In this document: positions 2,648-62,332 of the stretch, in pieces | Numbering within the stretch: position 1 is the first letter of the stretch | Layout of the letters: every line of letters starts with the position of its first letter | DNA from: Thelephora terrestris | Lineage: Eukaryota > Basidiomycota > Agaricomycetes > Thelephorales > Thelephoraceae | DNA length: 64,000 bases | Reading direction: 5' to 3' | Assembly (NCBI GenBank): GCA_015956445.1 | Contig: WIUZ02000002.1 | Span: 3,286,001-3,350,000 of the forward strand | The notes under the pieces: generated by a model | Databases searched by the model: none | Told to the model about the DNA's origin: nothing | What the model saw: only the letters and a program-made list of their open reading frames with translations | Program-made: the position numbers and the translations under genes

Positions 2648-5600
2648 TCACGTCCGAGGAGGAAATACAACCTCCTGAGCTGACAAACCCGGGGGATACG
2701 ATGGCAATCGTCCATGCGAAGCGAGTCTGGTAGCGTCGACCGTCGAACCCTTGCCGCTCGACACAGAAGACCCCCCGGGGCGTGATAGGAAGAGGTGGAA
2801 GTGCAATGGGAGACCGTCGGCGATGTATCGTTCCAAATCTTCCAGGCGTCCTATCCCGTGGGTTTGATAGAACAAGGCCGTACCTCGCTCAATCAACCCC
2901 CAGGCTTCACGGTCCTCGACATTGAAGACACCGACAGTCCAAGCCCACATGATCACAACTTCGGCAATGTTCAAACATTGAAGCTCTTCGAGGCGCCTAA
3001 TGGCGGCGACGACCTTCGCAGCCGTACAAAGCAATTCCAGCCCAGATTTTGCTTCTTGTGAAAGCATGTGCCGAATCGCAGTCCTCTTGCCTTTTTTCTG
3101 TAGACAGAAACTCCTCACAAGTGATGAAATTCGAGGTTTGGAGGTGGCTTCGCCACAAGTCCGACGACGCAAATTCGATCAGGACAACTGCCGTGTCAAT
3201 GGGTTCGGAATGATCGGGCCCCAATAGATGACTTCGCGGATTCGGGGGAGAAGTATCTCGGGTGAATGAAAATGGGTCGCCAACTACCCGGAGAAGGTTC
3301 TCGAGGTTCTCACCTGCGACATTCTCCATCTGCAGAGAGAACCACACCATCGCGGATGCGGTGAAGACCTGGAGGGCCAGACTACGTGATTGTAGAGCGT
3401 GTGTTGGAAGGAGCGTCAATGAGAGGGCTGGGAAGATCGTCGGGCCGAAGTCAGCGGATACATGCGCAACCGAAAGAATGCGGAGGGCGATGGATCCTGC
3501 ATATGGTGGGGGTTCCGTCGCGTAGAACTTCTCGCTCAGCGACAAGAAGCCCAAGAGGAGATGTATCCGTGTAGGCGTCACGAAGAATTCCGGATAGGAG
3601 ATATCCCCATAATCTTTCTTGGGAAAGAAAAAATTTCCTAGGAGTTGCACCATACTGCTTGCCATCTGGTAACGACTCCTCTCCGAAAATCCGGAGCTGA
3701 GAATATCCGCGATTAACGTAAAGCCCATCTCTCCGTCTCGTGTGATTACAAACGGGTCGAGGTGAACCAGTGCGGATAGAACCCCCTCTATCGTAGTGCC
3801 CCCGGGGTTATATCCCCGCCCGATTGTGGTCTTCAACTGCTGACAGGCAAGCTTAACCGCTTTTTGTAACGCTTCGCTGCGACTTAATGAGAAAACCACA
3901 TGGAAAGAACGGAAGAGGACACATACATGGTGTTGGGAGGATATAGATCACGACTGTCAACTTCGAGTCCCAGGAAGATTGCAATAAGGAGGAAATAGCT
4001 CGTTTTCAGAATGGTGGGGGTATTGTCGAAATTGGTCATTGTTCCTGTGTACAAGAACCGATCTGGAAAGTGGGGCAAGATGTTGGAGCCATACGAAAGC
4101 CTCCACCGCCAGAAAATCTGGAGCATCACCCTGCTCAACCAGAGCTTGATGGTAGTGGTTAAGTGATCGACTCCACGGAGGTCCAATCTTATGCCTGGCA
4201 AAAGTCCCATCCACTCATTCACAGCGCTCAGGCCCCCCAACACTTCTAAGAATTTCCGAAACCAAGAGCCACTTTCGGTCAAGCAGAGATACGTCCCCGA
4301 TACCTCCCGAAATGCGCCGACAGAGTTCCCTAAGCTCCTGACTCTCGGGTTCCATGACGAGACGGATGCTAAGTACCGAAGCCAGTGCCATCCCTATTGC
4401 ACTCGCGTGCTCCAACTTCCCGGGAATCACTTGTCGATTCAAAAAACAATCGAAGAGGAGATCTGTAAGAATATGGGGTGACACGACCCTCGCAATCTCC
4501 GGATACCAGATCATGTCCGCAGCGAACCGGGCAGTGGAGGATAATACGTCGGGGTCCCCGGTATAGTCGAATACCCACCAGATACAACGGGAATCTACGT
4601 TGCAAACCTCCAAGTCCACATAGATGTCCTCGAAAACCCGAATGGGTGACACAAGGACAGCCGCTTGTGCTGTATGCTCTGCTCCCCCTTCTACAGTCGA
4701 ACCGCAATGAAAGCCCCCCAATCGCCGACAAAGTCCGGATAGAAAATACCCAAGAAGCCGTCCTAGATCTCTAGTGGAAGGAAAAGATGAGATAAACAAT
4801 CGCAGCGAGCGAACGAATGCGGAATCGATCTGCTCTATGCACCGGATGACGGTTCTGATGAGGGCGGAAGGGGGTGTTTGGTAGGGGCAGTTGTAGTAGA
4901 ACGTTGCTGCGAGAGTGAAGAAGACATATGAGGTGATCCCTAAAAGTGCGAACGCGAGGGTGACTCCGGCGACAGTTCGGCTGATTGTCCACAGATAGAG
5001 CGTCAACGCACAGCCAAGCAACAGCAAAGCGAGCTGAAGCATCACCGGGAGGCTTTCGATCGTGAGCTGTAAATTCCACTTCTTGAATCCATCCAGTTTT
5101 CGCTGTCTGTCTCGGCTCTTCTCCGCAGCAGAGCCTCCTTGCTTCCGAAGATATCTGTTGACCCATTGTTTTCCGAGCATCGCGATAAATGCAGCGAAGA
5201 GTGACGTGGCGAGGCTGGAGTAGAGCAGTGTTTGCACGGTTACGATCTCGGGAGGAGGCCCGGTCCAGGTGGTAGAACTGGGGTCTGCATCGGGGAAGAG
5301 GGAGCTGTTCATGTTGTGGATCAGGATCCGCATGTAGGCGGCAGTCATCTCGTTCGGATCCGGTTGGAGGTTTGTTTGGACGTCGATGATGAACGCCGAG
5401 CTGACTGCGGAGAACAGACCGGCCTGCGTACTTGTAGGTTCAGTGTTCGGCACAGAAGTCGGGAACCCGACGACTTACGAAGATGAGGGACGTGTTCAAG
5501 TCCTCGTCGAACTTCCCCGCGTAATCTCGGTCAAACTCTTCAGATTCCCTCCGATAGATGGCGAAGAAGTCGGTCCGCGAGTCGTTAGTCCTCAGTGGGT

Positions 5601-29734: not shown

Positions 29735-31874
29735 TTATCTATACTCAGCCCCGCAATCTCCGATCGTCGCTATGAGCCTGTCCCCGTTCGAGTTTTCCAA
29801 AACGGCCTGAATGGCGGCGTTATCTTGCGCGGTTAACGCAAACCCAAACGTCTTCTTGTTATCGTCCTTGTGTTCGGCGATGCCCATCCGGACGCCTAGA
29901 AACAAGGAAAGGAAACGGGCGCGAAGATGTGTTCGGGATAGGCAAGGGGTGTGGTTGTTTGGCCACCCGAATGGATTTTTGATTGTGTGATGTGGCGGGG
30001 AAGGGAAGATGATGCGTGTATGTGAGTGTGTGTGCGGTGAGATGATGGAAAAGGTGAGGGGATGTGTGGGGTGTGTGTTTGATAGGCTTACCGATGATTA
30101 CGGCCCCTACGCCCGGTTGATCAAGGACCCATCGGGTGGCGACGTTGGCGATGCTGACCCCCCCATGGCGGTCCCCAATCGATCGCAAGACTGAGAGCAG
30201 TTCCTGAAAGAGCGACCAATCCCCCCACGCTTTCAGTATCATATCGAGATACTATGGGGATCGAAGCGGAGTGGATGTCGGAAGGGGTCAGCTGAGCCCG
30301 GAAGGAAAGGGTGGGGTCCTTGCCACACGGACGAACCTTTCGTTGGGAAGGCGTGAGAGATCCATCGTAGAGTTGCGGTTCTGGTTCTCCCAACCACGAA
30401 TCGGATAGGAACCCGCCGCACTGATTTTTCAGAACGAGAGTAAGAGTTTAATCACTGCGGGGCAAAAACGCGCGGGATCGGTGTCACGTACCAAAGTACC
30501 GTACGTGAGCAGTTTGGCGTTGTGCTTCTGGCACACGTCAGTCATCCCGTGCAACGGCCGAGTGTCGATGAGTGAGAACTACATGAGCCGAAAACGGTCA
30601 GAATGCGTCCACTCCCCCCACACACACACACACGCGAGAGGGTGGTTACGGAAAGAGGAAAAAATAGGGCGGAGGTGTGACGTAGAGGATGACATGGGAC
30701 ATGGGGAAATCGAAGCTGCTGTTCCGTGTAGGGTGTGATTATATCACCCGCGATTGCCTGCCCAGGCTGACGGGAAGAAAGGAAAAACGGGGACGATCGA
30801 AGGAAGAAGCACACCTGAACCTGATTTGAAACGATGGAATCCGGGCCTAGGGTGGTACAGATCTCGTCCATCCGGATAGCGTCGAAGTTGCACAGGCCGA
30901 GGGCTGTAATTAGACCTTCCCTTTGAAGGTCTTGGAGCAGCTGAAGCGCGACGATGTACCCATGGTCGGAATAGTCGTTCCAGTGGAACTGTATGGGGGT
31001 GTTTCAGGTAAATCGATAACGCGTGGTCTGTGTGTGTGTGTGTAGCATCATCAACGGAAAGAGACCGACCTGCAACAGGTCGACGCAATCTGATTGCATG
31101 CGATCCATCCTCTCACGTACAGCCTCCTCCACGATCGGTCGCGTCACTTCCGTGGGCCGAAAAACGCACCACTTTGTTGCACCGACGATTTTGATCGGGG
31201 ATACGACATCTTTGACAGCTCGGCCCTGGCGACGAAGTAAAGAACGATTGAAACGAACGAGAGAGTGGGGAGGGAGGGAGGAAGAGAGGGGGGACCCTGG
31301 ACGTTAACCAAAAGTGTTTTAGGCGAGGATGTAAGCGGCGTCGCTCTCACAAACATGATCTCGGCGCTCCCGTAATGATCAGCTAAGGGGAAAAAAATGC
31401 AGCCCAAGAAAGAGATATTGTGAGCGCTTGAGCGTGTGTGTCTTGTGCCTGAGCAACCCGAAACCGCGGATCGTACTCACCCTGGGTCACATTCGTGTGT
31501 GTGGGGGGAGAGGGAGGGAGATTAGGAGGTGGGGGGAAACACGGGTCAAGACCGAGCACGGCGTTTGGAACACGCACCATATCTACAGATCGCGGTTTAC
31601 AGCACGTCACACTGAAGGGCGGGAAGCAAGACGTACCGAAAGCTGTGTAACCGTTTTCGGCGTGACCGGCGATGGCCCTGCGGACCTTTGCTGCGGGTGC
31701 CGAACCCCAGGCGACGCTCGAAAGCTGCCATAAACTTTTGGTCCGGGAGTGTGTGTCATTATAAGCAAGATCGTGAAGTCCCGATGGATCGGGCCGCACT
31801 CACCCAGTGAAGATGCGTGGGCAGGTCAGTGGACCCAATTCAAACGTTTCGATTTCTTGCTGGTGATCAGTCAT
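29735..31874 (-). CDS. Aldo/keto reductase with candidate 5-nt and 1-nt micro-exons
   Basis: The model has 31804-31874, 31637-31734, 31578-31582, 31481, 31351-31382, 31070-31225, 30815-30988, 30492-30578, 30337-30420, 30092-30251 and 29735-29895: 1029 nt, 342 residues, all junctions in phase. Family motifs are FTGLWQLSSVAWG at the N-terminus, FDMADHYGSAE (tetrad Asp and Tyr), IVGATKW (tetrad Lys), LLQFHWNDYSDHG (tetrad His), GLCNFD, SNQVQFSLIDTRP and VATRWVLDQPGVGAVIIG (NADPH-binding part). The enzyme should reduce carbonyl groups using NADPH in the cytosol; its substrate is unknown. The Asp-Met of FDMADHYG appear only if exons of 5 and 1 nt are used. Without them the two flanking exons still join in frame, but the catalytic Asp is lost. 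Introns are TG/CA- and GA-rich. Confidence 0.85.
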
Positions 31875-39493: not shown

Positions 39494-42400
39494 CTACGAG
39501 AAGAAGTACAACGACTTCTTGACGGTGTTTACCTCGAAGTTACCCTTCTTTGGCACGGTTGGAAGCAGCTTTGTCAGCTCCACAAATTTGAGTTCATCGC
39601 CAAGACCCAAGGGATAACTAGCCTTCATCTCCTCCCTCGTCCTTCGCTTCTTCCTCTTGGAGACGGCTGGGCCAGTGTCGCCACTGCCCTCAGTTTCTGT
39701 TTTTGCTTCCGTAGGGGTGACCTCGCGCTCCTGGGGTTCATCTTCCTCAAGGTCTTCCTCCGAACCGAGGGCGAGGTCAAGTGCCTCCAAGAGGTCTTCG
39801 GTGGAAGTGTGAGGCCCAACCTCCTTTGGTTCCACCGAATCGCGTTGGGCGGCAGAGTTCAGGATCTCGTCCGATGTCGTGTGTTCACGGGCCGCGAGCT
39901 GCTTGACAAGCGTACCGGACTTGAGCCAAGCGATTGGGACTCGGTAGCCTTTGTATCGTTCCACGAACTACAGATAACTATTAAGTCGATCAGGATACAT
40001 AGGTGGAAGCGGTTCGGCTGACCTCGTCGTGGAGCTTGCCCAAGATGTTGGACGAGTGAAGGGCGATAAAAGTATCACGAATGATGCCTGACATCTGGTC
40101 TACGCTACAGGCATGGGTCCAGTACGAGTCGTGGACAGATGCGAATGTCAACCCCTGGGTCTAAAGCGAACGAGTCAGATAAACTCTCGATGCTTCTCAA
40201 CACAGATCTCTAACCTGGCACTCCAAGGCGGTCAACATCATGTGCGTTGCGTCCAAGCTGTGGATGAAGTTGGGAGGGAACGCCGAAGCTTGTTTTACCG
40301 AGTTCACCGTGGCAGGGGCATTGGGATCCGAGATATAGACGGTCTGGATGGACGTAGCGACCTGCTTCTTTTTAGCTCTCCTGTAAGGCTGAACGATAGG
40401 AAGTCCAAGAGGGGTAGTCCAAATGACTGAGGTCATCTGTTCATCTTTGGTGCTGTCCGTCGCGGAAGTCTTGCGCTTCTTCTGAGGAGCGGAGACCGCG
40501 GCAGGAATTCGAGCGGGCGGAATAGACTTCGAGATGAGCCGGGCACAGATATTGAGCCAAGTCTGGATTTCCTGAGCTCCGGAGAACAAGTTTCCAATGC
40601 ACTCCATAACCTTCTTTGCCAAATACGAAGCAACGAGCCAGCACTCCTCTTCGGGGATGTCTTTCCTTTCCTTTAGCTGTTTCTCGATTTGATCCCTCGC
40701 ACCAACGAAGGTGACACCGTATACGGTTGTCATGACAGTTTGTTTGACAACCTTTCGAGTGATCTTCCCTTCCAGCATCATCGCGAACCTGACCTGCTTC
40801 GCAGCGTCTGACTTTATTCTCTCCTGTACCATAGCTGCGACGTAGCTATAGACATCAGAGGGACGATCGGTAGCGCCAAGGTTGACTTGCTGTGCACCCT
40901 GGGAATCCCCTCCCAGGGCAGCGTAGTGCTGGAGCCCGTTGCACGTGCCATCTTGGTGGACGGGGAAGTTGGACTCGAACGCGAGGGGATCCGGGGATTC
41001 CAGAGCGGAACGGAGCTCCATGCAAGCGGCAAGACATTGCCAAGGATCTTCGGCCTTTTGCCACCATCGGTTTCCCTGGCAAAGGACAGCAATGAGCAGT
41101 CAGTCACGACAACTGTTCAACTGACTCACTTCAAGAGGACGTTCAGCACTATCGTAAATATCCGCCAAGTGGTCGTCGACAAATTGTGCCCGCTCGTCAA
41201 AGCTACCCTTGTCGAATCCGCACAAGTTCGCCAAATGAATCTTCAACCACCTTAAGCCACTTGCACCGAGAGGCTTGGCCTCGGCGAAAAGGAGGAGCCC
41301 ACGAGAGAGATCGTCGCCAATGTGGTTCAGGTGCGGTGGGATAGGGTATGCTCGACCACGGAAATCCATGTTGTGGGGGAGGTAGATCTGATCACCCAAG
41401 AACTACGATCGATGCGTCAGTGACGGTGGAGTAGAAGAGGGGACTGAAGCGGCGTACAGCACGTGCGATCTCAACCTTGTAGTTCACGCTGCACCTACCC
41501 GAGTGGTTATTGGCCTTGCCCTGACTCCATGCCTTCTGCCTTGCCAGGTAAACCATCCTTGCTTTTGGATCTGCCTCATAGTTTTCCGGTTTCTCAGGTT
41601 CGGGAGCATCGTAGACCGCGGGAGGGATCTTGCACATCCTTTCACCAGAGTTCCACACCTTGAGGACTACATCGAAGACTTTTTGGTTGACTTGCCACGG
41701 GGTTGACCCGAGAACGTCCAAGCCAGCGTATACAAGTTCAAGATTGCCCTGGTCAGAGGCGTGTTTGAGGTAGCTCTGTTGTTCTTGGGATTCCTTGAAG
41801 CGCATTGCAGAACCTGGGAAGACGTGATTAGTACGAGTGGCCGAAAAGATGACTGGATCCATACTTTGGCTATAAAAGTAACCACCTTGATCATAGCTCA
41901 ACCAAGGTTTAGGCTTTACTAGCATTGGCAGTTGACGGGGATGTAGAGTTTCTCTGAGACCATCCCGTGACATCCGTTCCGCGACTTCAGGGTTAAGCCT
42001 TACGACCCCAAGCTTGTGTCCTCGAAGGTACTCATACGAATGGAAAAACGCAGGCTGTTCCTCGTAACTGAATGAATAAATCGTCAGCGATGGCGGTAGA
42101 AGGAGTGTGGAGGTATAGGGGCACTCACACAATCTCTCCAGTTTGCTTGATGGTCGTACTCCTGACGACAGTCGCAACATCCATAAGGGCATCGACCAAG
42201 AAACTTCCCACCTTAACTCTCAGGATCTGGGTCCAAGTAGCGGCCCACTCCTCCGAATCTTCCATGAACTTCCTCGCTGCCACCCGCCTCGCGTGCAGAT
42301 CCCTGTAACCAGACTTGGTGAAATAGCCAGGTCCTGTCTGTGGGTTGCTTGTGGGAATTGTGATGTTGTTGCGGCGGCATATCTCGGATTTGTGCTCCAA

Positions 42401-43986
42401 TTCAATGGCCCTCCCGATGGTAAGAAGGGCTCGAGCGGTTTTCATTCCCTCCGACACGCCACCTGAGCCTTGGAGACGCATCAATTCGAGAATGGTGATA
42501 AGGGAGAGCTTATCCGGGGAAACAAGCGAAAGGAATGGCCCTAAACGACTGTTGGCCTTACTGTCGACTGGTGCGGTGCGTCTCATTCAGCGTTGTGTTT
42601 GTGATGTACGGAAACCAAGACTTACCGATCGCCTCCTCCTTCTTGACGACGTCAGCGATCTCGATCTTCAATCTCTTTTGTAACTTCTGGTGCCACTCCC
42701 ACATCCAACTCTGTAGATGGGAGCCCCTGAGGCTTCCGTCTCCCAAGCCAAGTTTGTCGAAGACCTCCGCCTGATGCTTAAGGCGCTCGGCCGCTTCCTC
42801 GTATACGGAATCTTCGAGGAGTTTCTGTCGACTGGCGACGTCGTCAGGAAGGACTCGGCGGGCGAGAGCGAGTTGTCCAAGCTGTTTACGTAGAACTTCG
42901 AGGTTGAACGGAATTTCTTGTTGATCTGGGTCGTTAGGATCGAAAGGTTCTCCCAGGGTTGGATCGTATTCCTAGATCGTTGTTTCTCTCAGTAAGCGTA
43001 ACAATTAGGAGGGGAGAAGGTTAACCTTCGGTCGCAGGACAGGCATGGCCTCCGGAACATCTCGTAGAGGGTCCGGGAAGAGGGAATTTCCCAATGCTTG
43101 GGTCCTGCCAAGCTCGTCGACCACTGAAACGAGGTTCATGTCGACGGCGGTTTTAGAGAGAAGCTTAATGATATCTGCAGCTTCTTTATCTGATGAGATG
43201 GATCGAGAGGCGACGATATGGGAAACGGGAATTTGACGATCGACAAGTCCCCTAAGCAACGCGGGGGGTTCGCGCATGCCTATGTCCGATGGCAATATCG
43301 GTTGGGAAGATTTTGGGTTGAAGCTGAACGAATATGAATGTAGGGCGAATAATTGAGACATTGTTCTCCTACCTGAGCCAAGTTGAGAACATGATTGCGT
43401 AGGTTGTGGCATTCGGAACGGCGACCTCCATCCCAGTCTCCATGGAATTAAAAAGAGTGCACGCGTCCTCCAGCCAAATAAGCCTGTTGTCTATGTCTTT
43501 GGACGTGGCCATAGCAATGAACGACTCAAGTAGTGAATTGTAGAGGCGGATATCCAGAACGACCTCCGCCTTGGGGCTTTTGCGCAAGGTTTCGAAAATC
43601 TGTTTGGCTCGGGAGACGTCGTAGCAGTTGTGAAGACAAGCATCGATGACTGCGAGCGAGTCCTGAGTGACGGAGTCGATGAAATAGAGGTCGTGGAGGT
43701 GGGAGTTGTGGTCGGGTGGCAGTGGGGTGGGCAACAAGGTGAAGGATGTGCTACGGTTGAGGAAGCTCTGCATATCCTCACTCCCCGTTGCATCGCTCTG
43801 GCCCGCGGGTTTGGACATGTAAGGGGGGAGTTCGGGCGGGGCAGGGAGGGATTGCGCCAGGGAAGCATTACGACGCGATGCAGAGGGAGTAGAGTAAAGC
43901 CGAGCCGGGCGGGGCAGAGCCTGTCTCGAGTACGACAGCAAAGTCGTCCCTAGGCTTTTTGTCGCCGACCGTCGGAGGGGAATCAT
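39494..43986 (-). CDS. RPO41: Mitochondrial DNA-directed RNA polymerase (T7-like)
   Basis: Nine exons fit in phase: 43373-43986, 43026-43323, 42626-42971, 42129-42567, 41458-42067, 41130-41402, 40215-41075, 40023-40160 and 39494-39967, giving 1350 residues. The N-terminus is basic and Ser-rich ([12 protein letters not shown]... [14 protein letters not shown]), a mitochondrial targeting sequence. Then comes a PPR-like helical part ([18 protein letters not shown]). The catalytic core has [19 protein letters not shown] (about 780), motif [17 protein letters not shown] (catalytic Asp about 902), motif [11 protein letters not shown] (Lys about 971) and motif [11 protein letters not shown] (Asp about 1158). 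It transcribes mitochondrial DNA. A Lys-rich insertion ([11 protein letters not shown]) precedes [17 protein letters not shown]. An acidic, then basic tail of about 100 residues follows the core, longer than I expect for the family. Confidence 0.95.
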
Positions 43987-48552: not shown

Positions 48553-51500
48553 TTATGGATAATCGCACGCCCAGTCTGCAAACGGGGCGGGAGCTACAGA
48601 ACATACAGGCAACAGCTCTGCTTCCTCGTCCACGCCAACTTCAACCGCCTCCTTCCACATCGCATGATCATATCCGAAGAGGTGATACAACCTCCGCACT
48701 TGACACGCCAGAGCGAGGCAAATGTACGTTTTACACCAGTCCCAAGACCTGCATCGTGGGTGAGGCGTCGGAACAAGTCTTTGATTATTACCTGTCCGAG
48801 GCTCTGAAGGACCCCAGATTTGTCGCCCGTAGAACCAGATAAGGAGCCTGCGCTCCTCGACCGCCTCAACGATATGCTGCCTCAGGGCGGTTAGGCGTTT
48901 CGTTCCGTGGGCTTGATAGAATCGGAGCGTTTCGCGACCAATCAATCTCTCGTCATCGCGGTTCATCGGGTTCACAGCACCCACTGTCCAGGCCCACATG
49001 ATTACGACTTGAGCTGTGTTGAAGCACCGAAGCTCTTCGAGGCACCTGATGACCATCTCGATCTTCGTAGCCGTACGGAGGACCTCTGACCATGAGTTGT
49101 CCTCCACTTCCAGCATGCACCTGATAGCAGACCTCTGTCCTTCCCTATTGGATAATACCTCTTCGCAGGAAGCGAAATTCGAGTGGCGGAGGCGGTTCCG
49201 CCACAGGCTTGACGATGCTAACCCGATCAAGACGACCGTGGCCATCATTGGTTGGTAACCAGATGGAGCTACAGGTTTACCGTCTTGGAGGGGAAGGTTC
49301 GGGAATTTGAATGGATCACCGACCGCCTGGAGAAGCTTATCGAGAGCGTTGCCTGGAACACCCTCCATCTGCGGGGAGAGCCATCCAGATGTGAATTTAG
49401 TGAAGACTTCCAGAGCCAGAATGCGTGATCGTAGCGGATGGATAGGCAGTAGTGTCGATGTGAGTATAGGGATAATTTCTGTGGCAAGGTCTGCATATCC
49501 TGGACTTATCGATAAAATTCGGAGTGCAGTGAATGCCGGGTCTAGTGTATTGTCCAACTTCTCGCACAGCGACAAGAAGCCTAACACCGGAGGGATCCAA
49601 GTGGGCTGTACAACGACCGTAGGCGCAGAGAAGTTGAGGAAAAGGTGTTTCCCTAGCCCCCCAATTACTACACGGGCCATGCGGTACCGCGCGTCCTCTT
49701 GATATCCGGAATTGAGAATTTGGGCGATCCACAAAAATCCCAACTCTCCATTTTCCGTGACTTGGAACGGGTTGAGGTCAACCAAGGTGCGTAGGACCGA
49801 AGTCAAATAATGGTCGTCAACCGCCCCCTGTACAATGACCGCCTGTAGTTGTCGGTGGAGAAGGCGAATCACCGTCCTCAATGCGTCACTGCCGCTAGGT
49901 GAATGAAACGAATAGGAGGGGGTTGCATACTACTCACTTAGTGCCTGGGAGATACAGATCATGGATATCGAGCTGGAGCCCGATAGAGATTGCGACTGTG
50001 AGGAAACAGTTTATTCTGGGGATGACAGGAATGTGATTATCGCCGGCGGTAAAAGCTTGATAGATGAGTTCCATCCAACAGGGGATAACTTCAGCAGGTC
50101 CTGCAACGCGCGTTCGGCGCCAAATCATCTGGAGCATTATCCTACTAAACCAAAGCATGTTCGCGGTCGATAGGTGGTCGGGTGTACTGCTGCAGATTTG
50201 CAAGAGAGTTGCCACGCGGTTGGTGGAGTCGCCTGCAATAAATTGAAGGACTGCCACAACCAGTGAGAAAGTTGACCGGGGCCAAGTTGTGGATTCCTTT
50301 TGAAGTTTGGAGTTGATGTGTCTGCAGAGTTCTTTGAGGCCCCCGGCCTCAGGTTCCATGCCAAGTTGGACGCTAAAAATTGAGGCCAGTGCCATCCCTA
50401 CTGAGCTCGCATACTCCAGCTTGCCAGGAATGACCTGCCCATCCAAAAAACAATCGAAGAAGAGATCCGCCAAAACGTGGGGTGACACCGCTCCCGCAAT
50501 CTCTGGGTACCAGATCGTGTCCGCAGCAAACCGCACAGTCGAGAATATGACGTCTGTATCTGTGGTGGACTCGAGGACCCAAGAGATGCAACGGGCGTCT
50601 GCCTTGAAATCCACCAAGTCGATGGAAATGTCCCAGAGGATTTCGGTGGGTGGTGCTAGAGCGACAGCGAGTGGTATGTATTCCGCTTCCGTTGTTCCAG
50701 ATAAGACATGATTGAGGCTCTTCAACACCGTGGAAATTCCGAAGCGAAGGCGCTGGAGGACCGATCTGAGGTTTTTTAAAGAGGGGAGGGATCCGGCAAG
50801 GGATCGTAGCGAGCGAGCGAGTTTGTCCTCACCGCGCGTCAGGTATTTGATAACGGTTCGTATGATGATCGAGGGAGGTGTTTGATAGGGACAATCATAG
50901 TAGAGCGTTGCTACGAGAGAGAGAAACAAATATGAAGTGACCCCGAAAAGCGTGACGGCGGCCACAACCCCAGCGACGGTACGGCTAATTGCCCAGAGGT
51001 ACTGCGACAGGGCACACCCCAGCAACAGCAAAGAGACCTGGAGCATCACCGGAAGGCTTTCAATGGCGAGATGAAAATGCCACTTCTCAAACCCATCCAG
51101 TTTCCGCTGCCTATCTCGACTCTTGTCTGCGGCAGAACCTCCGCGGTTCCGGATATATCGATTGACCCACTGTTTTCCGAGCATCGCAAGGAACGCCGCG
51201 AAGAGCGAGGTCGCGAGACTTGCATAAAGTAGAGATTGGACATTGACAATCCTGGGCGGAGGACCGGTCCAGGTAACGAGGCTAGGGTCTGCGTCAGGGA
51301 AGAGGGAGTTGTTCATGTTGTGGATCAGAATTCGCAAGTAGGCGGCGGACATCTCATTCAGATTCGGTTGTAGGTTTGACTGGACATCGATAATGAATGC
51401 TGAACTGACTGCAGAGAAAAGACCAGCCTGTGTAGTTCCTGTTTTAGCGTTACTCGTGAAGGGTGGATCCTGGAACACTCACGAAAATTAGGGACGTGTT

Positions 51501-55428: not shown

Positions 55429-58400
55429 ATGATCGCTTTCACCTGTCGCGGTTTCCTTGGAGAGAACACAGTTTCTCTATCTATCAATGGTGCCGCTCAA
55501 GAGTCACAGGTCTCGGCTTCCATCGTCTTTGCCCTCAATGTTCCTTGCGTCTTTGACAGACTCGGGTGCCAAAGGTCTTCTGTCGTCGTCAAGGTCCCCA
55601 CTTTGAATGGTTTTTACATCTCCAAAATGAACCTCTCGGTGTCCTATGGTCTTCTAACCGACGTGTCTCTTGGTTCTGATTGGATACTCCTATGTCAACC
55701 CGTCTTCATCAACGACCACCCATCCATCTCGAACCCGACGCTCGATACCATCCAGGCACTTCCCCCTCTCCATAGCTGGCAGCCGACTAGTGGTTCGTTC
55801 ATTCATTCTTCTTCAAAGCAACGTCTCTCTCCTGACTTACCGTTTAGTTACAGTAAATCTCGCTCAACTGCTCACAACTTCCCAGCGCGAAGCGCGTGAT
55901 GCACTGTCGTCCGTGCTGGGGAGTTGTTGCACCAGTGCCGTATTTTGTAATGAAATGTTTATGAACCATCGTATTGAGACACATTGTCAAACCGACGAGG
56001 AACAGCGCGATGCCGTTCTCCATCACTTGTTGAATGGAATGTGTTTTTTACGGCCGGATGTTCTTTCATGTCAATCTCTTAGCCGCCGCCTTGCATCGAC
56101 GATGCACCTCTCGTACGACATTTGTACCTCATTGTTGATTACATATAGGCATAAACAACTGGATCTGAGTACATTCCAGTTGTGTTGTGCGTCCCTGGAC
56201 ATGAGAAGCAACGGGTCGAACCCTGGACGTGATCTATCTCATCAGTTGCAGCAACGCCTGACACGTTGGGGCCCACTCCAGAAGTGCGAGGATGCGGTTG
56301 ATATGATTTCTCATGTCGAGTCGTTTGGTTTCGGTTCCCTCCTCGAGCTTGCTTCTCTCCACGGCATTTGTATGGACGTGAGCACCTCTGACAAAAATGA
56401 ATTTCGCAATGCCATCGTCAATCACCTCGTGTCCGGGGAATGCCAAACGAAAAATGCGGTGTTGTGTGCCTCTCTCTGTTCTATTCTGCTTCCACCCAGC
56501 AAACACAACACGCTATGTAATCTGAGACGACTCGTTTTAGGTGCTGTAATCAAATTGGGTGCCAAAAAAACTCTCCAACGTGGACTCAACTGTGTTGGGA
56601 TTATTAATGACCCGGCAGACCCCATCAGCAATCTGCGGTCTTTGTTGAACCAACACCGAGACACACTCTTTGTGGGAGGACCGCCACACTTACAACACAA
56701 CGAACACGCCAGTGCTGCTTTGGATGATGTTGCTGACAACTGGCCCCAGCGAATCTCCCATTCTGACAAGGCCCGGATCGTCCATGATTTCCGTACTGCG
56801 ACATCATCAAATGAACTGGAAACCCTGACTTGTGCCTCATGCGCTGAAAGAGTTTGTGTCAGGAAGATTTCAAATCAGTTCGTGTCTGATCTTGATCTCG
56901 ATGTACTCCATAACCTTTCGTCGACGTCTGTCTCCTCTGACCGAATCGATGTCGTCCAACCTCCCTTACCATATACAGAAGGTCCCCTGGCTGGGATTCT
57001 AGTCGATCCAGCCGGTGTTCACTGCAACGAAGACGGTACTCTGTACCTCTCGTTGTGTTTATTTTGCAAGAGTGCGCTATCACGAAGGAAGCTTCCGAAA
57101 TACACCCTTGCTAATTTGAATGTCATTGGTGCCGTTCCACCAGAGCTACAGTCCCTCACACTTGTGGAGGAACTCATCGTTTCCAGATGTAGGGCAAAGT
57201 TGTGCATCGTAAAACTGCAAGACCGCAAATACGACGTTGACCTGCCTGTGGTTCAGCGCGGCATGAAAGGACATATCATTGTCTTTCCCCAACATCCTGA
57301 GCGCCTACCCGACGTAATGCCCCCCACGATTAGTGATATAATCTCACCTATTTGTGTGCTTTTCTGTGGATCCACTACCCCGACCCCGCAGTGGTTGAAG
57401 GAGAAGGCGCGTCCATTGGTCGTGCGTCGTGAAGTTGTTTTAGTGGCCCTCCGCTGGCTATCTGTGCACAACCAGTTGTACCACGATATTATTATTGACA
57501 TGGACCGCATTTCAATGTTGCCAGAAAACGATGTCCTTGATTACCACATTGAACAGATTGAGACATCGGTTGCTGCTCATACACTTGTCTCACGTTACGA
57601 TAACTTGGACAACCATCCCACTGAATCCCCTCCCGATGCACCTATCCAGTTCGAAAGTGTTCTTATTACAGATGTTGATGCCAACGCCCCCTCGTGTCAG
57701 TTGAAAGCTGCTGCCCTTCGACACGCTAAACGAGGAGGATCATTTGTTCAAATTCCCCATGATCCCAACCCGGTGAACGAGTTTTTCAACCCAGCTATGT
57801 TCCCTATGCTCTACCCCACTCTCTTCCCCTATGGTATCGGCGGGTTTGAAGATAGACGCAGATTGGTTCCAATCGGTTTTGAAAGTCACGTTAAGCACAT
57901 GCTTTCTCTTGGTGATAGGCGCTTCCAAGAACACTACTCATTTATGTTTGTTGCCTTCAATATCATCCAACGGAGAAAGCTCCTACTTCACACAAGCCTT
58001 CGAGTGAATCAGAAAAACTTCCATAATTGGGCCCAGAAATTTGTTAATGTCTCTGTTGATACAATGCAAATTCTCGCTGAACGTGCTTCGGGTGGCTCTC
58101 TACCGACAGCAACAACTGACGACGAGCAGCAGGCACTCGATTTGTTGAAAGAAGTCAAGCTCATTGCCGCAAACATACCAGGTTCTGCCGCATCTCGTCT
58201 GACTATGAGAAATGAAATTCGTGCGAATATCCTCTCACTAGGTGTACCCAGTTTTTATGTCACGGTCAACCCCGCTGATGTCTACAACCCAGTGGTTCGC
58301 TTCCTTGCCGGGAACAATATTGACGTTGATGACCTGTTGTCCCACGAAGTTCCGACGTACTGGGACCAGGCGAAATTAGTGGCTCGGAATCCATGTGTAG

Positions 58401-61400
58401 CGGCTGAATTCTTTCATGTGTATATGACTGCTTTCATATCTGCAATCCTGGGATATGATCCGAAACAACGTTCAGTCACCCCCGGTATCCTTGGCGTCAC
58501 AAGAGCTTACTACGGCTGTGTAGAAGCACAAGGTCGTGGATCCTTGCACTGCCACATGGTTGTGTGGATACACGGTGGCATGACGTCTGACGAGATTCGG
58601 GAAAGAGCAATGGTCGATCTGACATGGAGAGATCGCCTAATTGAGTTCCTCGACGACACTGTTTGCAATGTCATTCCTGCAGATCCAGATCCCTCTATGA
58701 CAGTGCAATCCTCCAAACACCACCCGTGTGCTGTCCGCGGCATTGACATGAACGCGGATCCTGGTGCGGAAAACACGTTGAAAGCATTATTGAAAGACTT
58801 AAGAAATGTCGTCCTGGAGTCACAACGACACTCGCACACAAAGACATGTTTCAAGTACGGTGGCTCGGGTGACAGATCTTGCCGTTTCAACCTTGATGAA
58901 AACAATGTAACACCTGTCACGTCATTTGACGAAGAGGTGGGTTCAGTCGTGATGCGCCATCTGGATGGCATGGTCAACAATTACAATCCAACGATAGCAG
59001 TAGCAACACGCTGCAACGGTGACATCAAGTTCATAACATCTGGAAATGCTGCCAAATCCGTGTTATTCTACATCACTGACTATATCACCAAGAACCAACT
59101 GAAATCACATGTTTCATTCAGCGCCCTTGAAGCTGCGCTCAAAAGGCTTGGAGACCGTGATCCTGCTGATACAGATACAGAGTTGAGAGCAAAGAGGATG
59201 CTACAGAAGTGCGCATACTCCATAATTTCGCACCAAGAGCTCTCGGGTCAGCAAGTTGCCGCCTATCTCAGGGATTATGGAGATCATTACAGTAGCCACA
59301 AGTACAGGAGTTTATACTGGACCGCATTTGAGAAGAGCGTGGACATGGATTCCCCCTCACCAGAATGTTACCGTTCACACGACGATGACATTCACAACAG
59401 AGACGGTCTGCCGATCACCCAGGAACTTAACTCTGAACTGAATCGACCCGACACTGATGGCGAACTGGATGGAACAAACCCGACAGTCTTAGTAGATCAT
59501 GCCGAGTCTGACAACAATGCTGCCGAAGATGAGGACGTCACTGTGGTTGCGACACAAGGTGGAAACATTGTGCAATGCAGCACCCAAGTCCTCGACTACC
59601 GCTTTCGTTCTCCAGCGTTGAGTCACCTATCAGTTTGGGATTTTGTTTCACAGGTAGACAAGGTCAGAAAACCATCCGTTGCACGCAGTTCGAACAACAA
59701 CCAAAGCAGCATTGATTATTCGGAAGGCTCTGACGATGACAAAGATGATGACCTGACTCACGAGAACAACGGAGACAACTTCCTGGATCAACACCAGCCG
59801 CAAAGTGCTCAAAGAGGTAGAAAGTCTAGGACATTCCTGCTCCACGCACAACACACACAGGTTAGCAGCAAGGCCCAAAGGCTTCGTAGTGACCCCTCAG
59901 GGTACTTTGTTCCTGTACCCATCGGACCTGCATTACCCCGTCGTGACCGCTCAGAATTGTTCCCGAAATACTGCCGTTTGATGCTAATTTTGTTCAAGCC
60001 GTGGTGCACGGTGGAGGATCTGCGGGCACCCGACCAAACGTGGCCCAACGCATTCAACGAGTTTGTAGCGAGATCTGACAACAACACGAAATCAATTCTT
60101 GACAACATGCAGGTGTTGCACGAGTGCCGTGATGCGAAGGACACTGAAGACCAACGCAGGAGGGACACATACCGCGATAATGGTCGATCGGGCTGGACTC
60201 AACGACATGGGGTTGAACAACTCGCGGGTGATGTTTGTGAAGACGAATTACTCGACCACATTGACTCGGTGGTTAATTACGCATCTGACTGGCATTCGAA
60301 AATAAATGCAGACGTAGTTGAATGCCTGAGTGAGATAGCGCAGTCGGGGATCTTCTCAAGTACCGCTAATCATCAGGGCCAGGCAGAGAACCTTGCGGAT
60401 GATGTGGACGACCTAGTTCTCCCAGACGATCTACCGCTTGAGATCATGTGGAGGGCTACCTATGACAATCGTCACAAAATGTGGAAACAGACACTGTGCA
60501 CCCCTCCTGAAACCTCGACTGGTCCAGAACAAGTACGAAATAACCCTACGGTATCCAACTTGGACGCTGTACATGTACCGTCAGTCATGAGCCTTGAGTC
60601 ACAGCCACTCCTGCCTTCTGTGAACATCGGCGAAGTAATTGCAAAGTGGACGCTGAACGTTGAACAGGCACGAGCCTTTTCACTCATCGCGTCTCATGCG
60701 CAGCAAAACCAGATTTCGGAACCGATGAGGATGTATCTTGGTGGGTCCGGAGGAACGGGGAAATCGCGAGTCATTGCTGCACTGACCGATTTTTTCGCCC
60801 GGCGTGGAGAATCCAGGAGGCTACGACTCGCATCATTCACAGGGATCGCCGCAAAAAACATAAAGGGCACAACTTTGCACACAGCCCTAGCCTTGAACCA
60901 GCATCAGAAAAACCGAAAAAAGGGAAACGGAAAGACGAAGGCAGACCTTGTTGCAATGTGGACTGGCGTCGATTACCTTTTCGTTGACGAGGTTTCGATG
61001 ATTGGTTGTGGACTCCTCTTACAAATCCATGAGGCATTGGTGGATGCAAAGGGCCACACAGAGCCGTTCGGCGGTGTGAATGTGATATTTGCTGGAGACT
61101 TTGCGCAATTGCCCCCTGTAAGTCAGACAAAGTTGTTCAGCCAGGCGAAATCCACAAAGGAGACAACAATATTCGGCCAGCTTTTATGGAGATCGATTAC
61201 GACAGTAGTCATGCTCACCGAACAGATGCGCCAGGCAGGACGTGATAATGAACTTTTTGTCGGAATGCTCTCGAGACTCCGTGACGGCAGGTGTACCCAG
61301 GATGATTATGATCTCTTGAATACTCGCCTGTTGAGTGTCGCTCTGGATAAAACCTCCCAGGCGCAATGGCAATGTGCTCCAATGGTGGTTTACACAAATG

Positions 61401-62332
61401 CGATTAAAGACGCAATAAACCTCGAAGCGACGAAGGCATTCGCAAGGAGAAATAATCGGCAGATCAATTGGTATTATGCTGTAGACACGTACCACGGGAC
61501 ACCGATTGAGGATGAGGCGATCAGTAATGTTCTTGATACCATGCCCTCTAACAAAACTGGTGGCCGCATTCGAGTTCTGCCTTTGGTGTTGGGCATGCCG
61601 GTTGTGGTGACCGAAAATTTTGACGTGGCTGGAGGCATTGTGAACGGGAGCACAGGGATCCTCCGGAAGGTTCGGTACCATGTTGACGATACCGACAAGA
61701 GGTATCTCACCTCTTGCATAGTCGAGCTGCCCGATATGACGGCCGATGCCCTTCCGAACCTTCCCCCCAAGCACATCGCTGTGTTACCGAATGAAACGGA
61801 GATGAAACCACTTCGTCATCCGAATACTGGACACAGCTGCACTCTTCACCGATATCAGGTACCTCTAGACGCGGGTTTTGCAATCACCGCACACAAGGCA
61901 CAGGGCCAGACACTGGGGAATGTCGTTGTCGACCTGGCCAGCTGCATTGGAATGGAAGCCGCATACGTCATGGTTTCCCGGTGTACGAGCCTCAATGGGT
62001 TGATGATTCTCCGCCCCTTTCCCATAGGAAAGATCAAGGCCCATCGGTCACAAGAGGCTCGGGACGAGTTCCGTCGCTTAGACGGACTCAACACCCAAAC
62101 GATGGCCAAATGCGGAGATCACACAATGAGCTATGTCAGCCCATCGGCCGTTCACAGGCCACCCCACACTGGAGGTGTTTCACAAATCACAACTTTATTT
62201 TCTGGGGTAAACCCTCCGGATGTTGGCAGTGCAAGCCGGCTCCTCGATCAGGTACGGGACGCTGGGGGAGACAGTGGTATGTTGCTTCTAGCCCATCTCC
62301 CGATTGTCCACACATGTTCCACTAACACATGA
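55429..62332 (+). CDS. Helitron Rep/helicase with spliced N-terminal exon
   Basis: Exons 55429-55792 and 55848-62332, joined by a 55-nt GT-AG intron in phase, give 2282 residues. Domains in order: an N-terminal module of about 120 residues with SYGLLTDVSLGSDWIL; a DUF6570-type region (LTLVEELIVSRCRAKLCIV, RGMKGHIIVFPQHPERL, VALRWLSVHNQLYHDI, about 560-690); a Helitron N-terminal domain (FFNPAMFPMLYPTLFPYG); the Rep nuclease with the metal-binding HUH-type motif GRGSLHCHMVVWIHG (about 1020) and the paired tyrosines in LFYITDYITK (about 1195); an acidic linker; and a Pif1-like helicase with Walker A GGSGGTGKSR (about 1752), VDEVSMIG (about 1835), GDFAQLPPV and TAHKAQGQTLGN. Rep nicks and rejoins DNA, and the helicase unwinds it during rolling-circle transposition. 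No stop or frame change occurs in exon 2. Confidence 0.9.

Follow-up and report, generated by a model that had tools for sequence, protein, structure and literature searches.

We identified in Thelephora terrestris a gene that very probably encodes a working aldo/keto reductase and whose sequence points to constitutive exons of only 5 and 1 nt, with three spliceosomal introns falling within six coding nucleotides. The window, that is, the whole stretch of DNA analyzed here, comprises 64,000 nt of contig WIUZ02000002.1 and comes from a genome of 40.6 Mb in 60 contigs; positions below are counted from its first letter. The gene is complete, runs along the minus strand (31874..29735), and belongs to the aldo/keto reductase superfamily (PF00248). 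The model has 11 exons, nine ordinary exons and two micro-exons, supported individually by the reading frame or by the reading frame and homolog alignment:

31804..31874 (-), exon 1, 71 nt, with ATG at 31874; reading frame and homolog alignment
31637..31734 (-), exon 2, 98 nt, ending in TTC G; reading frame and homolog alignment
31583..31636 (-), predicted intron, 54 nt, GTACGT...CTGTAG; donor 7.9 bits, acceptor 6.2 bits
31578..31582 (-), predicted 5-nt micro-exon ATATG; completes the Asp57 codon (second and third letters) and encodes Met58
31482..31577 (-), predicted intron, 96 nt, GTGCGT...CCCAG; donor 7.8 bits, acceptor 3.9 bits
31481..31481 (-), predicted 1-nt micro-exon G; opens the Ala59 codon
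31383..31480 (-), predicted intron, 98 nt, GTGAGT...CCTTAG; donor 8.3 bits, acceptor 7.0 bits
31351..31382 (-), exon 5, 32 nt, CT GAT CAT TAC..., encoding ADHYGSAEIMF; reading frame and homolog alignment
31070..31225 (-), exon 6, 156 nt, carrying tetrad Lys87; reading frame and homolog alignment
30815..30988 (-), exon 7, 174 nt, carrying tetrad His123; reading frame and homolog alignment
30492..30578 (-), exon 8, 87 nt; reading frame
30337..30420 (-), exon 9, 84 nt; reading frame
30092..30251 (-), exon 10, 160 nt; reading frame
29735..29895 (-), exon 11, 161 nt, ending in GAEYR and the stop; reading frame

With both micro-exons included, the gene reads from ATG to stop as 342 aa without an internal stop. 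ATATG and G give FDMADHYGSAE in phase and leave introns of 54, 96, and 98 nt, as the first-pass annotation had proposed, and the coordinates and sequences on which that proposal was built all agreed with the DNA. The annotation had further held that the frame closes without the micro-exons at the cost of the tetrad Asp. This was also the case: the model lacking both is 340 aa long and still in frame, minus Asp-Met. The PF00248 score was 177.4 bits with Asp-Met and 161.9 bits without it (cutoff, 24).

The region in question is the 254-nt gap between the end of exon 2 (31637) and the start of exon 5 (31382), which divides as 54 + 5 + 96 + 1 + 98. Exon 2 ends ...TTCG at 31637 and is followed by GTACGT; ATATG (31582-31578) is flanked by CTGTAG and GTGCGT; the G at 31481 is flanked by CCCAG and GTGAGT; and exon 5 begins at 31382 with CTGATCATTAC. 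Two of the three introns would interrupt the Asp57 and Ala59 codons, each behind its first letter, and the third would lie between them, directly behind the Met58 codon. In the spliced mRNA, the predicted junction is TTCGATATGGCTGATCAT with both micro-exons included and TTCGCTGATCAT with both skipped. Taken as one intron, the 254 nt remove exactly Asp57-Met58, and exon 2 joined directly to exon 5 encodes FADHYG with the frame open.

Alignment of the micro-exon model to a solved structure (1pz1) matched D57, Y62, K87, and H123, with Asp placed on Asp; Asp, Tyr, Lys, and His at these positions are what we take to be the catalytic tetrad of the family. Of 585 matching records, 30 were listed, and ten plasmid-borne homologs were fetched from these. 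FDMADHYG was present in seven of the ten (40.8 to 43.4% identity in the initial comparison and 42 to 44% in a later alignment); the other three, which are more distant, have DCADIY and thereby keep Asp. In a wider prokaryotic set, consisting of the best 80 of 578 relatives, Asp occurred in 80/80 and a gap at the site in 0, and the tetrad as a whole was retained at D in 80, Y in 80, K in 78, and H in 80. Residues 56 to 63 in these best 80 of 578 read FDMADHYG in 64 (a count biased upward because FDMADHY itself served as one of the two search patterns), WDLADIYG in 9, WDMADIYG in 4, and WDLADHYG in 3; Asp was also found in all 16 kept loci without FDMADHYG. At the junctions between the other ordinary exons (seven introns), the homolog alignment, read by eye, had no residues missing at the splice points. 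Relatives came neither from the prokaryote contigs searched with the protein alone nor from viral contigs. Among the best candidates scored in its own genome, eight of eight protein matches were the window gene itself, with no close paralog among them; other aldo/keto reductases are present elsewhere in the genome. The earlier claim that the micro-exons restore the catalytic Asp is thus supported by the 1pz1 alignment and the 80/80 homologs, and likewise by the sole GT/GC-AG route and the donor strengths given below.

Exon 2 supplies the first letter of Asp and exon 5 the last two letters of Ala, so that the six letters AYATGG are required from the gap. We searched exhaustively for every spelling of GYTAFDMADHYG in genome order, from 31734 to 31351, with introns of at least 25 nt. 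Exactly one GT/GC-AG route led to FDMADHYG, namely, ATATG at 31582-31578 plus G at 31481. This G, a single nucleotide with AG before it and GT after it, keeps the frame and restores the conserved protein. In a separate enumeration of chains with GT-AG introns of at least 40 nt and added exons of at most 60 nt, 14 of 56 chains stayed in frame and free of stops. Among these 14, the 5+1 chain had the top splice-site score (26.2 bits, versus 21.0 for the runner-up) and was the only one to give FDMADHY. A 9-nt exon, ATATGGTGC, was rejected: it is in frame, but it encodes FDMVPDHYG, with one residue extra between Asp and Tyr, and its donor is weak (2.1 bits). The other in-frame chains starting at 31582 insert 2 to 18 extra residues in the motif, and Asp is absent from the last two.

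Splice sites were scored with a model trained on 161,415 bases (the window, five 10-kb stretches, and 14 of 37 aldo/keto reductase loci) and seeded with a generic donor consensus. Its introns (n = 147), which are predicted and not observed, had a median length of 56 nt, a 95th percentile of 342 nt, and the donor GTRNGT. The present gene lies outside the kept window models; therefore, the model was not trained on the gene itself. The donors at 31636, 31577, and 31480 scored 7.9, 7.8, and 8.3 bits, within the top 1.3, 1.7, and 0.9% of 19,340 GTs, respectively. There are 19 GTs in the gap, and the best of the 16 unused ones scored 5.4 bits. At the rate seen inside model introns (3 per 11,347 nt), a stretch of 252 nt should contain 0.07 internal donors scoring 7.8 bits or more, and at the rate for all sequence, 0.20; two were observed in the gap, both where needed, and none inside the gene's other seven introns. 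One of the gene's introns (236 nt) contains a GT repeat at 30619-30633 (-) that forms five overlapping donor-like sites of 7.2 bits.

The acceptors scored 6.2, 3.9, and 7.0 bits (58th, 18th, and 78th percentiles of model introns), the one preceding the 1-nt exon being mediocre. The case for the micro-exons is weakest in its branch signals. Branch-like CTAAT and CTCAC lie ~40 nt upstream of the ends of the 96- and 98-nt introns, respectively; none of the motif forms sought occurs in the 54-nt intron. A branch-like motif was present in 92 of 133 model introns, and the distance from motif to intron end had a median of 17 nt and a 95th percentile of 54 nt (n = 50 model introns measured).

We then quantified how often chance alone would produce a route to the same residues that uses at most three micro-exons and introns no shorter than 40 nt. 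An Asp-Met route appeared in 51 of 668,579 dinucleotide shuffles of the gap (7.6 × 10−5) and in 16 of 12,502 real genome stretches (1.3 × 10−3; overlapping stretches at 25-nt steps, with the end letters set to GT and AG). Among these Asp-Met routes, the observed splice-site score was matched in 0 shuffles and 0 real stretches. When any residue was allowed after Asp, routes were found in 1,091 of 111,429 shuffles and 528 of 12,502 stretches, none of which reached the observed score. In a smaller pilot, the counts were 0 of 5,000 shuffles, or 13 of 1,500 when the residue after Asp was left free. AGGGT combined with a donor of at least 7.8 bits occurred 4 times in 322,830 bases on both strands, the present one included; at that rate, 0.0014 occurrences are expected across the 116 nt in which it would be usable. 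The frame, the motif, the uniqueness of the canonical route, the donor strength, and the improbability by chance are all results of computation; we infer that the cell splices the gene by the 5+1 route.

It is quite unlikely that the 254 nt form a single intron, yielding a protein without Asp-Met that would be an inactive or altered enzyme or the product of a decaying gene. Such an intron would fit the closure of the frame without the micro-exons and would lie inside the predicted range (95th percentile, 342 nt). However, the predicted median is just 56 nt, the remainder of the frame is intact, Asp is kept in 80/80 homologs (best 80 of 578), and 0 of 668,579 shuffles reached the motif with equal site scores.

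Splicing of the 5+1 route would likely proceed by ordinary GT-AG chemistry, with the three short introns removed singly in turn. The 5'-site and 3'-site machinery cannot fit such a small exon at once, so each short intron would be recognized separately. For example, removal of the 96-nt intron would join ATATG to G, abutting the strong donor GTGAGT, and each removal would leave the next donor in place. In plants, reads near micro-exons suggest consecutive removal of the flanking introns (PMC8831610). The arrangement may well have originated by successive intron gain around codons held unchanged by selection. Gradual intronization is proposed in a paper on Zygnema. An origin of these introns as introner copies was unsupported, the 254 nt having no other match in the genome in a search that skipped simple repeats and common words.

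The two micro-exons add up to six letters, so omitting both would be frame-silent, costing only the catalytic Asp and Met; by arithmetic, skipping just one micro-exon (5 or 1 nt) shifts the frame. It is conceivable, though unlikely, that this frame-silent skipping could make splicing efficiency an on/off control of the active site. That both forms are made, inclusion giving active enzyme and skipping giving an in-frame form without the catalytic Asp that would escape nonsense-mediated decay, with splicing setting activity, we consider very unlikely. Preservation of the frame when both micro-exons are skipped, and its loss when one is, would suit such a system; nevertheless, there is no sign of regulation here, and the family motif alone also explains the six nucleotides.

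The least probable alternative is that Asp-Met is present in the mRNA but that the G is supplied via a noncanonical splice site. A search over the site classes tried gave three such variants, each with an identical mature mRNA: a single 6-nt exon ATATGG (31582-31577) with a TG donor; the 5-nt exon followed by a next exon from 31383, after an intron ending in TA; and a 1-nt exon at 31472 whose acceptor is AC and whose donor is AT. Splice sites of this kind are generally very rare, and each variant needs an accidental textbook 1-nt exon in the right interval, expected 0.0014 times. Since the three variants yield the same mRNA, reads of the finished message alone cannot prove the 1-nt exon: finished mRNA can reveal Asp-Met, not the source of the G. 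More generally, a neighboring splice site can lend the same letter, making finished-mRNA sequencing insufficient proof of a 1-nt exon.

One-nucleotide exons have already been published. The first-pass annotation had described them as extremely rare and named a plant case, APC11; the APC11 case was borne out, but the rarity was overstated, VPS55 and Fusarium CYP621A having also been published. In Arabidopsis APC11, a 1-nt exon (A) was proved by a base substitution recovered in cDNA (PMC4674806). Like the exon predicted here, it is a constitutive single nucleotide between GT and AG; unlike it, it is a lone micro-exon in a plant gene. The 1-nt microexon of plant VPS55 shares its GTRAGT donor with the present gene (PMC8831610, PMC11096116). 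In CYP621A, a fungal nuclear gene, the 1-nt exon is a single G in AGGGT (PMC12940212). The two fungal genes are alike in this G in AGGGT, in a conserved motif whose failure without the exon led to its detection, and in an intronless homolog that serves as a length marker. In CYP621A, however, exon phase is lost on omission, and the evidence includes a comparison of 20 orthologs as well as SRA reads, whereas the exon predicted here from the sequence is paired with a 5-nt exon, and double skipping keeps the frame. The same source mentions 8-nt and other micro-exons in the basidiomycete Phanerochaete (PMC12940212).

Adjacent 5- and 12-nt micro-exons have been described in a rice transcript (PMC8831610) and in a peptidase M1 gene (PMC11096116). 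The peptidase M1 pair resembles the present one in being two adjacent micro-exons, the first of 5 nt, but measures 5 + 12 nt versus 5 + 1 nt here, six nucleotides in total. A single-base exon is also found in placozoan cox1 (PMC5436844), which is mitochondrial, in contrast to the nuclear spliceosomal gene described here. The closest fungal class by mechanism is that of stwintrons (spliceosomal twin introns), described as two introns that meet at one point and are removed in consecutive reactions. There, an internal intron splits a splice signal and zero nucleotides are retained, whereas the present gene must retain one G, and it falls outside the class by both frame and sequence. For the [D1,2] type, the sequence 3' of the acceptor at 31482 is GGTGAGT, not TGAGT; a stwintron reading that joins ATATG straight to 31382 adds 5 nt, which is out of frame and outside the 14 in-frame chains.

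A literature search of titles and the starts of abstracts, with most subscription papers outside its scope, found neither a 5+1 pair nor a basidiomycete 1-nt exon among the matches listed, and passages of PMC8042270 and PMC4014442, like a term search of PMC12403724, yielded nothing further on 1-nt exons. A 5+1 tandem that places three introns in six coding nucleotides around a catalytic residue seems to be new. If true, it would be the most compact micro-exon tandem among the published cases found and a telling example of spliceosomal handling of exons below the size that exon-based recognition requires. It would also represent an annotation hazard, in that a model omitting the pair keeps its frame and seems unremarkable despite the missing catalytic residue.

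Several features of the homologs and of the window were observed in addition. In seven bacterial homologs (loci L038-L044), the annotated genes are 1,443 to 1,488 nt long and extend ~150 residues beyond GDEYR; the fungal protein stops at GAEYR, the point matching this GDEYR. A branched-chain amino acid ABC permease gene is next to the homolog, or overlaps with it, in five of these loci (L039-L043). Two distant homologs of the DCADIY type (L046 and L047), one from an archaeon and one from Mesorhizobium, adjoin a gene of the TIGR04076 family. A Pfam scan of the window covered 9 of its 49 long frames and returned DUF6535 twice, a Helitron protein, a PF00940 RNA polymerase, and an F-box-like match just below the cutoff; four of the nine scanned frames had no Pfam match. 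This domain content, DUF6535 in particular, would fit a mushroom-forming basidiomycete. The DUF6535 frames (4218-5474 and 49937-51478, both on the minus strand) are ~45 kb apart. At 55658-62332 (+), an unbroken stop-to-stop frame of 2,224 aa carries DUF6570, Helitron-like N-terminal, and PIF1 helicase domains; it is a Helitron transposon protein with its frame open. The gene with the PF00940 RNA polymerase domain lies at 39494-43818 (-), has 10 predicted exons, and presumably encodes the mitochondrial polymerase.
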